DNA of 64,000 nt from Acidithiobacillus ferridurans (GTDB taxonomy: Bacteria; Pseudomonadota; Gammaproteobacteria; Acidithiobacillales; Acidithiobacillaceae). Below, piece by piece: positions 24,973 through 29,611 of this stretch; the first letter of the stretch is position 1, and every line of letters starts with the position of its first letter. Location of the stretch: contig NZ_AP018795.1 in assembly GCF_003966655.1 (NCBI RefSeq), positions 310,001 to 374,000 of the forward strand, given 5' to 3'. The position numbers and the translations under genes were made by a program. The notes under the pieces were generated by a model that saw only the letters and a list, made by a program, of their open reading frames with translations, was not told where the DNA came from and did no database searches.

Positions 24973-26211
24973 TCAGGAGGCACGTGCCGCCGCATCCAGA
25001 CTGCGCAGGGTCTCATCCGCACCTGCCGCCGCCGTCAGGTCGGCGACATTATCCTTGGTGAAGAAGCCCTGAAAACCTCCGAAGCGCTGTACGTACTCCA
25101 CGATCAGCGAGGAATGCTCCGAAGCGCTGGAGAAAATCTGCTTCAGCCCTTCCCTCTCCGAACCAGCAACCTCCAGCAGAAATTTCTGCCCGCAATTCTG
25201 CAGGACGTGCACCACATGGTCGATATTGGCCTGACCTCCGGTGTGTCCATCCCGCACCGCCACCGCCAGATGATGTAAACGCGGCCCGAAGTTGCGCACG
25301 AAGGCCTCGGTGGGGGACGGTCTGCCGATCAGGTGATTGCAAAAATACGGATGGTTGGCGGCGGTAAAAACCTTGGCCGGGCTCTGCAGTTCACTGGTAA
25401 AATGCATGCTCTTGGTCACATTCGTGGAAGAATTCTGATCGGGAATATCGTAGGAACCCCAATAGTAATAACTGGAGAGAGTCAGATACTCGAGAATAGC
25501 CGCCTCCCGATTCTGACTGTAGACCCTGGTCGCCAGGTGATCGATGGGCAGAAGGAGCTTGTCCAGACCGAGCCTCTCACGCAATTCCTTGGCCCGTTCA
25601 AAGGCGGCCTGCATGTCCTCCCGGATCGAGGATAGCCCCAGGGAATAGACCCGGATGTGGTCGTCCGGGCGCTCCCAGTAACCGACGACATTGTGGGTAT
25701 AGGGAGACGGTTTGACGATGGCCATATTCCCCGGCAACTCCAGGTGGCGAACCTGCTCCTGATTGAAAAAACGGATTTCCCGGCCCTTCTGCACCTCCAC
25801 CACCTCATGCAGGTTTTGAACCTGAAAGATCTCCCCCATATACCGGGAGTTCGGCCGCTGCGCCCCGATGGGATAGACCTCGTTGAGACTGCGAAAAATA
25901 CCGTGCAGGTTGGGATCTTTCACCTCCCGCACCAGCACGTCGGGGGCACTCATGTCGATCCGCAGGATGTGCGTCGAGTGCTGCTCTGTTTCCAAGGTAA
26001 CCAGGTAGTCATAAGGCGTCATCAGGCAGAGTTCGCCGACATAAGCCACGGAATGCCCGGGCTCCACCGTGATCATCAGACTGTCGATACGGCCGATATT
26101 TTCGCTCAGGCCCTGGCGGTCACGGTCTTCCAGCAACCGTCCCAGCCACTCCTCAAAAAAAGCGGAATTCTGCTTGTCGCCCTGCCGCTGAAAATCTGCC
26201 GATGCCTGCAT
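24973..26211 (-). CDS. HPPD-like (VOC superfamily) putative non-haem iron dioxygenase
   Basis: A 412-residue protein from the ATG at 26211, where GGAGAA stands about eight bases upstream on the minus strand. The C-terminal half follows the catalytic half of 4-hydroxyphenylpyruvate dioxygenase. PIDHLATRV (His225), PRLHHLAVAV (His314) and LIVEYVQRFGGFQGFF (Glu372) align with the three iron ligands, the last resembling the FEIIQR..GFG motif. Between them STNVTKSMHF resembles the HPPD strand before the second His. The first 215 residues are not obviously a normal HPPD N-terminal domain. Non-haem iron dioxygenase or related chemistry is inferred; the substrate is unknown. The gene is divergent from a TetR regulator and may be controlled by it. 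Confidence 0.65.
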   Translation of the reverse strand: MQASADFQRQGDKQNSAFFEEWLGRLLEDRDRQGLSENIGRIDSLMITVEPGHSVAYVGELCLMTPYDYLVTLETEQHSTHILRIDMSAPDVLVREVKDPNLHGIFRSLNEVYPIGAQRPNSRYMGEIFQVQNLHEVVEVQKGREIRFFNQEQVRHLELPGNMAIVKPSPYTHNVVGYWERPDDHIRVYSLGLSSIREDMQAAFERAKELRERLGLDKLLLPIDHLATRVYSQNREAAILEYLTLSSYYYWGSYDIPDQNSSTNVTKSMHFTSELQSPAKVFTAANHPYFCNHLIGRPSPTEAFVRNFGPRLHHLAVAVRDGHTGGQANIDHVVHVLQNCGQKFLLEVAGSEREGLKQIFSSASEHSSLIVEYVQRFGGFQGFFTKDNVADLTAAAGADETLRSLDAAARAS

Positions 26212-26335
26212 ATCCACTTCTCCATTCATGTCGTGTCGATCAGTGTAACCCCCCTGATCCAGGCAGCCAACGTACCCCCCTTCGCACTGCCCTTGCTTCA
26301 TCGGCCGCGTCTTGCCGGAAAAGCACATGCACTTC

Positions 26336-26364
26336 TTGACAAGATACCGATTGGTCGGTATCCT
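26336..26364 (+). promoter_or_regulatory. Promoter of the TetR operon with embedded operator
   Basis: A perfect TTGACA (26336-26341), a 17-base spacer and TATCCT (26359-26364). Lying in the spacer and overlapping the -10 is a perfect inverted repeat, GATACCGA-TTGG-TCGGTATC (26343-26362). Binding of a TetR dimer there would block polymerase, the standard autorepression layout. The ATG of the regulator follows at 26372, so the transcript is nearly leaderless. Confidence 0.85.
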
Positions 26365-26371
26365 TAATTTT

Positions 26372-26989
26372 ATGATGACACAGCCCCTACGAAAAACCCG
26401 TAACCCGGAGCAGACCCGCAGCGATCTACTGGATGCCGCCTATATCGAGATTTTGGAATCCGGCTTTCAGGCGGCCAGTCTGGAACGCATTCTTGCCAAT
26501 ACCTCAGTAAGCAAAGGCGCGCTCTACCACCACTTTGGCACCAAGCGCGAACTGGGGCTGGCCGTAGTCGAAGAAGTGATTGCGCCGCAACTTGCGGTGC
26601 GGTGGTTCGCCCCTTTTGCCGAGCACAATGACCCTTTGGTCAGCCTCCATCGTATTCTCGAAGAAAAAATCAATACCGCCGACGAATCCGTCATCCGCTA
26701 CGGCTGCCCCCTCAATAATCTCATCCAGGAAATGAGCCCCCTCGACGAGGCGTTCCGCTGCGGGTTACAGCAGATTCTCGATCGCTGGGTCTCGGTCATG
26801 GCCGACGCCCTGGCCGAGGGGCAGACCGCCGGCAAGGTGCGCACTGACGTCGAGGCGAAAGAGGTAGCACTCTTCATCGTTGCCGCCATCGAAGGCTGCG
26901 TCGGCCTGGGCAAAAATGCGCAGTCCGTCGAAGCCTATCGGCGTTGTTTGCGACAGTTGCAACTCTACGTCCAGTCACTGGCGGCCTGA
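26372..26989 (+). CDS. TetR/AcrR-family transcriptional regulator (NemR-like context)
   Basis: A 205-residue repressor. The start is ATG at 26372 or 26375, just after the promoter/operator. The N-terminal helix-turn-helix is typical (TRSDLLDAAYIEILESGF, then ASLERILANTSVSKGALYHHFGTKRELG). The ligand domain contains RYGCPLNNLIQEMSP with Cys112 in a position where NemR-type regulators carry a redox- or electrophile-sensing cysteine. The following dienelactone hydrolase and Old Yellow Enzyme genes give it a nemR-nemA-like context. Sensing of reactive electrophiles is inferred. Confidence 0.85.
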   Translation: MMTQPLRKTRNPEQTRSDLLDAAYIEILESGFQAASLERILANTSVSKGALYHHFGTKRELGLAVVEEVIAPQLAVRWFAPFAEHNDPLVSLHRILEEKINTADESVIRYGCPLNNLIQEMSPLDEAFRCGLQQILDRWVSVMADALAEGQTAGKVRTDVEAKEVALFIVAAIEGCVGLGKNAQSVEAYRRCLRQLQLYVQSLAA

Positions 26990-28930: not shown

Positions 28931-29557
28931 TCAAACGGGGTTCGGGACGGATTCCACCAGCAGCTTCTGCAACTGCGCGAGTGTCGCCCTGCGCAGGGGT
29001 CGACCGTCCACGGGGGATGCGGGACTGCGCCGGTCCTCGTCCAGATCAAAGAGGACCAGACGCAGATCAGCCCCGGCAAAATTCAGTTTCAGGCAAGGAT
29101 AATCCCGGGCCGGGGCATCCCCATAATGAAGCCGCTGCCAGACCTCTTCATAAGCCACCTTCTGATCCATCAGAAAAAAAATCACGCTCTCCGGCGTGTC
29201 CACAAAAAGATGGAGGGTGACGGGCACGTGACGCGTCGCCGTCCCGGTCAGAACCGGCCCGGTCAGACGCGGCCGAAACTCCGCCAGCCACTGCATGGCC
29301 TGCGCAGCCTGCTCGCGGAGCAGGCGCAACTCCGCCTCATGCGCCTGACCATGGAAAAGCTGCAGACGTGACTGAAGCTCTTCCTCGATCTCCGCATTAC
29401 TTGGCCAGTCCTGTTGAGCATCGCCACCAGCGCCCAGGCGGCGCGCCGCCTTTTCCTTGGCCACCCGGAAGTCCACCACCCCTTCGTCAGCCATGATCCG
29501 CGCCGATTCCACCACTAGCAGGCGCCGCAAACGGGATTGTTGCTGTGACTTAACCAT
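28931..29557 (-). CDS. Conserved-looking protein of unknown function
   Basis: A 208-residue protein from the ATG at 29557 (MVKSQQQSRLRRLLVVESAR); an alternative in-frame ATG at 29590 would add 11 residues. The first third (ESARIMADEGVVDFRVAKEKAARRLGA) is a basic helical region seen in a family of proteobacterial hypothetical proteins. The later part (RHVPVTLHLFVDTPESVIFFLMDQKVAYEE) looks like an alpha/beta domain. No catalytic motif is assigned. It is convergent with the OYE gene and its 5' end faces away from tRNA-Leu. Confidence 0.7.
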   Translation of the reverse strand: MVKSQQQSRLRRLLVVESARIMADEGVVDFRVAKEKAARRLGAGGDAQQDWPSNAEIEEELQSRLQLFHGQAHEAELRLLREQAAQAMQWLAEFRPRLTGPVLTGTATRHVPVTLHLFVDTPESVIFFLMDQKVAYEEVWQRLHYGDAPARDYPCLKLNFAGADLRLVLFDLDEDRRSPASPVDGRPLRRATLAQLQKLLVESVPNPV

Positions 29558-29611
29558 TTCCGCACCCCGCTCATTGTCTACAAACGACATTCCGCATAAG
29601 ATAGCGCGAAT

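Follow-up and report, generated by a model that had tools for sequence, protein, structure and literature searches.

The enzymes closest to the one described here are 4-hydroxyphenylpyruvate dioxygenase (HPPD), hydroxymandelate synthase (HmaS) and hydroxyglutarate synthase (HglS), in which an alpha-keto acid chelates Fe(II), cleavage of O2 frees CO2, and that very molecule is then hydroxylated by the Fe(IV)=O so formed (PMC7286885). HglS, of the DUF1338 family (PF07063), is likewise a VOC protein and an Fe(II)-dependent intramolecular alpha-keto-acid oxygenase (PMC7286885), and it sets a precedent for a branch of this enzyme type with little sequence identity to HPPD. The iron of Arabidopsis HPPD is held by His226, His308 and Glu394; Gln379 and Asn423 form a network with Glu394, and a second network, Ser267-Asn282-Gln307-Gln293, is needed for 4-hydroxyphenylpyruvate (PMC6750108). 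The genomic context of our protein leads to a different system, the Anbu operon, which as summarized in later papers comprises four genes, coding for Anbu, a CP-ATP-grasp protein, an alpha-E protein and a transglutaminase-like protein, with no oxygenase among them (Iyer 2009 as cited in PMC6376114, PMC5666114). The ATP-grasp protein of the operon releases phosphate from ATP, no peptidase activity was found for Anbu, and the function of the operon is unassigned (PMC6376114; PMC5666114). The open-access literature that we found, a scope that leaves aside the 2009 paper defining the operon, names no oxygenase tied to Anbu.

The window, a 64,000-nt stretch of the Acidithiobacillus ferridurans genome, contains on its minus strand a gene whose product we refer to as the HPPD-like protein (Table 1). 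A GGAG sequence lies ca. 8 nt 5′ of the ATG; an alternative, longer ORF opens at position 26328, although conservation in the family begins near the chosen ATG instead. The coordinates of the ORF given in the initial annotation, its motifs PIDHLATRV (H225), RLHHLAVAV (H314) and IVEYVQRFGGFQGFF (E372), the numbering of these residues and their spacings of 89 and 58 residues were all exact on re-check. The gene is present in one copy in the 2.92-Mb genome, whose closest named relative is Acidithiobacillus ferruginosus (98 %).

Table 1. Features of the locus (positions in the window) and of the Anbu cluster in the same genome (positions preceded by C1).
Feature	Coordinates	Strand	Basis or remark
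HPPD-like VOC protein gene, 412 aa	24973..26211	-	ORF; family alignment begins at same start
His225 codon, predicted Fe ligand 1 (Arabidopsis HPPD His226)	25537..25539	-	invariant; hhalign
His314 codon, predicted Fe ligand 2 (HPPD His308)	25270..25272	-	invariant; hhalign
Glu372 codon, predicted Fe ligand 3 (HPPD Glu394)	25096..25098	-	invariant; hhalign
Gln358 codon, counterpart of HPPD Gln379	25138..25140	-	invariant; aligned in QIF motif
Asn388 codon, counterpart of HPPD Asn423	25048..25050	-	invariant; aligned in C-terminal helix
His313 codon, replaces HPPD Gln307 (substrate network)	25273..25275	-	invariant His in family; Gln in HPPD
Candidate -10 element TACACT of the HPPD-like gene's own promoter	26242..26247	-	A. 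ferrooxidans-group conservation; inference
Palindrome GATACCGA-N4-TCGGTATC	26343..26362	.	candidate autoregulatory operator of divergent TetR gene
Divergent TetR-family regulator, AcuR-like	26372..26989	+	sequence match; neighbour, not counted within the system
Anbu, host genome	C1:832569-833633		
ATP-grasp, host genome	C1:833948-835411		
alpha-E, host genome	C1:835396-836382		
TG-DUF2126, host genome	C1:836421-839783		

One scan of species genomes returned 205 stretches encoding relatives of the protein, and the best 80 of them (identity at least 70 %), which came from Acidithiobacillus, Thiobacillus, Hydrogenophilales, Gallionellaceae, Halothiobacillus, Methylotenera and Methylococcaceae, were taken as the locus set. 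In a draw of 398 genomes from the phylum the gene was present in seven, with members reaching down to 66 % identity. Neither the species-genome scan nor the phylum draw detected relatives below this value, the plasmids and viral contigs searched contained none, and no distant relatives were found in the Anbu operons of ortholog-free genomes. The family is compact, its members sharing 66–100 % identity. H225, H314 and E372 are invariant in all of more than 100 orthologs, which takes the triad noticed in the initial annotation beyond chance; D224 and H313 are equally invariant in the family alignment, and the invariant positions besides the triad number ca. 160. Searches of Pfam, NCBIfam, PHROG and PDB sequences gave no match above threshold, and the HPPD model TIGR01263 did not match the protein at E values up to 1, its curated cut-off not being reached. 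The sole library hints to the nature of the family are subthreshold Pfam matches of VOC type: of 34 members, 20 matched Glyoxalase_4 and three matched YecM.

The family profile was compared by hhalign, unguided, with an HPPD profile made by aligning 12 HPPD sequences drawn from genomes. Residues ca. 211–395 of the family paired with the HPPD catalytic domain over 150–173 columns, with H225, H314 and E372 falling exactly on the three HPPD iron ligands and several motif pairs in register (SPTE-FVRN/SQIEEYL, LKQIF/LLQIF, IVEYVQR/FFEIIQR, GNF and the terminal N..L helix). P values were ca. 0.0008–0.0016, against 0.3–0.5 for reversed controls, and the score of 31.8 compares with a best of 28.1 among 200 column shuffles and with 12–20 for 14 unrelated families. 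The absolute hhalign probability of the relation is modest (16–24 %), a consequence of how little the family members differ (Neff 1.7). The resemblance to HPPD proposed from the order and context of the three residues is thus upheld at profile level, with the triad on the HPPD ligands and a score that the shuffles never reach. The largest gap in the alignment, of ca. 31 HPPD residues, opens between family residues 346 and 347, and the lack of this ca. 30-residue loop, located in HPPD between the second ligand module and the QIF motif, accounts for the 58 residues between the last two ligands, versus ca. 82 in HPPD. The architecture had been called atypical on two counts: this spacing is indeed so, but the N-terminus of 215 residues is not as unusual as it appeared, as the first ligand of plant HPPD is His226 (PMC6750108).

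The same order of His, His and Glu is found in extradiol enzymes, and a VOC metalloenzyme with this triad could perform another chemistry within the Anbu system, as an extradiol-type ring-cleaving dioxygenase, an isomerase or a lyase. The weak Pfam matches of the family are to generic domains, and catechol 2,3-dioxygenase (TIGR03211) reaches a score of 33.9, close to that of HPPD. Nevertheless, this match ends after 34 columns around His314 and covers that single ligand, and no alignment to TIGR03211 extended over the two VOC modules and the whole triad, whereas the HPPD alignment takes in every ligand and also the QR-G-N-F motif of the C-terminal helix. The structural comparison described below also lists HPPD and HmaS and no extradiol enzyme, and we regard this other chemistry as rather unlikely. 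Despite being of the same enzyme type, HglS differs in showing no sequence relation to the family: there was no Pfam match to PF07063, and hhalign against the two partial HglS sequences used gave a score of 20 (P 0.04–0.07), within the range of the unrelated families. Searches of the host genome found neither an HPPD nor an HGLS gene.

Residue roles were taken from the Arabidopsis HPPD-substrate structure (PMC6750108) and transferred through the alignment, in which the family retains the 2-His-1-Glu iron triad in HPPD register. The Glu394-Gln379-Asn423 network is kept as invariant E372, Q358 and N388, and Phe381 corresponds to F360. The network for 4-hydroxyphenylpyruvate is not kept: His313 takes the place of Gln307 and Gln293 aligns to Pro300, both changes being invariant, Ser267 is not conserved, and the counterpart of Asn282 is ambiguous (N286 or N292). 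Additionally, Phe392 and Phe424 are replaced by Ile370 and Val389. As judged from the alignment, the resemblance to HPPD extends to the metal site but not to the substrate pocket. With the iron triad and the Glu-Gln-Asn network retained and the 4-hydroxyphenylpyruvate network lost, the family appears to be a separate HPPD-like branch, and the protein is probably an Fe(II) oxygenase that acts on an alpha-keto acid other than the substrate of HPPD. This agrees with the initial proposal of an HPPD-type VOC protein in a new branch, probably with a different substrate, which is supported by the changed pocket and by a genome that contains no HPPD. A genuine HPPD or HmaS that had drifted in sequence would share the triad, the equivalents of Gln379, Asn423 and Phe381 and the match at the level of the fold, but it would also carry the invariant changes of Gln307 and Gln293, the replacements of Phe424 and Phe392 and the loss of Ser267. 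In HPPD, the mutants Q293A and Q307A lose catalytic efficiency by ca. 3,700-fold and 99-fold, respectively (PMC6750108). Together with the lack of a TIGR01263 match and a genomic linkage to the Anbu operon, this makes a true HPPD or HmaS very improbable; HmaS is set apart by the same pocket changes and by its other genomic context.

A template-free AlphaFold model of the full-length protein had a pLDDT of 48.8 and a pTM of 0.56, and that of residues 200–405 alone a pLDDT of 44. Foldseek returned no significant match with the full-length model. When VIA-align was run over the 1000 best Foldseek candidates, all 50 top entries listed were HPPD or HmaS, for a model with a pLDDT of 49 and non-significant Foldseek matches. 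The top entry was human HPPD (3isq; Z 8.5, rmsd 4.6, 232 aligned residues), HmaS (2r5v) gave a Z of 7.3, and the matches spanned residues ca. 23–391 of this low-confidence model, that is, both of its halves. This result is supportive of an HPPD-type fold, which in a VOC protein would consist of paired beta-alpha-beta-beta-beta modules, and not proof of it, because unrelated models can also reach a Z near 8 and the PDB contains many HPPD entries. The protein is known from sequence alone, and a degenerate VOC protein, acting as a ligand-binding sensor or structural partner and having no catalysis, would not be foreign to a system in which Anbu itself has no peptidase activity (PMC6376114). However, neither the three metal ligands nor the pocket residues vary in over 100 sequences with identities as low as 66 %, and we consider such a loss of catalysis extremely improbable.

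Neighbour clustering first pointed to genes for ATP-grasp, alpha-E, transglutaminase-DUF2126 and Anbu proteins, and a direct search then counted one or more of them beside the HPPD-like gene at 53 of the 80 loci. Commonly, alpha-E lies 30–200 bp upstream on the same strand. Gene order varies, the arrangements including ATP-grasp, alpha-E, HPPD-like gene; ATP-grasp, alpha-E, transglutaminase, HPPD-like gene, TG-DUF2126; HPPD-like gene, TG-DUF2126, ATP-grasp, alpha-E, Anbu; and Anbu followed by the HPPD-like gene. Additional linked cases (genomes G029, G413 and G090) were reached by a family search independent of the neighbourhood. The genes are unlinked in most Acidithiobacillus and several methanotrophs, and so they are in the host genome, where a complete Anbu cluster lies ca. 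0.5 Mb away from the HPPD-like gene (Table 1). Every main branch of the family tree includes the linked state; Acidithiobacillus sulfuriphilus, which has the linked form, was placed outside the rest of the Acidithiobacillaceae in a quickly built tree, on which the linked/unlinked label requires about five changes versus 23.6 in shuffles. The cross-genus conserved partner of the HPPD-like gene is the Anbu/ATP-grasp/alpha-E operon. Two further observations concern the Anbu-operon genes themselves. The host cluster is immediately followed by prkA and a DUF444 gene (L154:12242-17176; G000:C1 ca. 840–845 kb), and some carriers of the HPPD-like gene encode, in addition to the separate pair, another ATP-grasp-alpha-E protein, probably a fusion, of ca. 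850–880 aa (L063:7797-10346; G413, G460, G461, G463-G466).

The two also accompany each other across genomes. Among 57 relatives, CP_ATPgrasp_2 was present in 24 of the 25 genomes carrying the HPPD-like gene and in 11 of the 32 non-carriers (Fisher p 1e-6, a statistic that ignores kinship); it was likewise found in 19 of 20 tested carrier genomes derived from the loci and, in the phylum draw, in all seven carriers versus 213 of the 398 genomes overall (ca. 0.013 if independent). These counts are inflated, because the genomes are related and CP_ATPgrasp_2 is common. The reverse does not hold: seven of the 213 carriers of CP_ATPgrasp_2 in the phylum draw, a small share, have the HPPD-like gene. 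All ortholog-bearing genomes tested but one carry CP_ATPgrasp_2, and linkage to or accompaniment of the Anbu operon spans many sulfur- and methane-using bacteria.

The exception (G018, the genome of locus L020) has the HPPD-like gene and lacks both ATP-grasp and alpha-E. There the HPPD-like gene has a 4-bp overlap with a gene for a PutA-type proline/P5C dehydrogenase (L020:8001-14007), and within the genus the two genes either overlap or abut (also L201:8038-13530), followed by a glutamate-synthase-like gene. This arrangement was seen only in one Acidithiobacillaceae genus (L020/L202, L201), in which one congener with ATP-grasp shares it, and it is a possible hint to the substrate chemistry. 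Linkage to a PutA-type gene, in one case in a genome devoid of ATP-grasp and alpha-E, would fit an enzyme of general metabolism, for instance in the oxidation of proline/glutamate or other amino acids, that shared with the Anbu operon only regulation or ecology. We find this unlikely, as the PutA linkage was seen in a single genus and that with ATP-grasp and alpha-E occurs, with differing gene orders, in every main branch.

The initial annotation also proposed that the gene may be regulated with an electrophile-response operon, a suggestion that was not supported. The TetR-DLH-OYE neighbours are common to the A. ferrooxidans group alone, and the palindrome, conserved only in loci of this group, sits between TTGACA (26336-26341) and TATCCT (26359-26364), likely the TetR promoter (TTGACA-N17-TATCCT), and not at the candidate promoter of the HPPD-like gene itself. 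The TACACT element of the latter, conserved in the A. ferrooxidans group, is ca. 100 bp from the palindrome. A partnership with the electrophile operon was rejected, since synteny and the operator search confine it to this group. Elsewhere in the window, a 219-aa protein encoded on the minus strand (28931-29590) is syntenic within Acidithiobacillus and had no NCBIfam match at E values up to 1.

These data add a new branch to a known type of enzyme and link it to the unexplained, peptide-making/proteasome-like Anbu system. Our favoured reading, which we hold to be probable, is that of a new-branch HPPD/HmaS-type VOC oxygenase that does not use 4-hydroxyphenylpyruvate and works in, or feeds, the Anbu/CP-ATP-grasp/alpha-E/transglutaminase-DUF2126 system. 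The N-terminal half would be non-catalytic, and in the C-terminal half His225, His314 and Glu372 would coordinate a mononuclear Fe(II). An alpha-keto acid other than 4-hydroxyphenylpyruvate would most likely chelate the iron before O2 binds, CO2 would be lost, and the resulting Fe(IV)=O would hydroxylate the same molecule, yielding a hydroxylated carboxylic acid. By joining what is known of the Anbu operon with the chemistry of HPPD, HmaS and HglS, we infer that the enzyme could make or oxidise the carboxylic acid activated by the ATP-grasp ligase. What the data themselves establish is the homology signal to HPPD, the invariant triad, and the linkage and co-occurrence with the Anbu operon; iron binding and oxygenase chemistry on an alpha-keto acid are predicted from the ligand set and from homology, and the order of steps is a proposal. 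A more specific version, in which an HPPD-like intramolecular alpha-keto-acid oxygenase of a third kind acts as an accessory of Anbu peptide synthesis and provides a hydroxylated acid (or an oxidised peptide) for ATP-grasp/alpha-E ligation, is put forward tentatively, as possible but doubtful.

HPPD-type oxygenases, a class of herbicide and drug targets, would gain a branch whose pocket has changed. About half of the genomes in the phylum draw encode the ATP-grasp family of the widespread Anbu operon, for which we know of no substrate or pathway; the HPPD-like enzyme would give this system a first oxidising step. An invariant metalloenzyme of a well-understood class beside the operon narrows the chemistry to be expected to Fe(II), O2 and, probably, an alpha-keto acid, and the small molecule that it makes may be what the ligase uses, which would offer a tractable handle on Anbu. 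On the more specific version above, what sulfur and C1 oxidisers produce with their Anbu systems would be a modified peptide, a metabolite or tag whose formation depends on oxygen.
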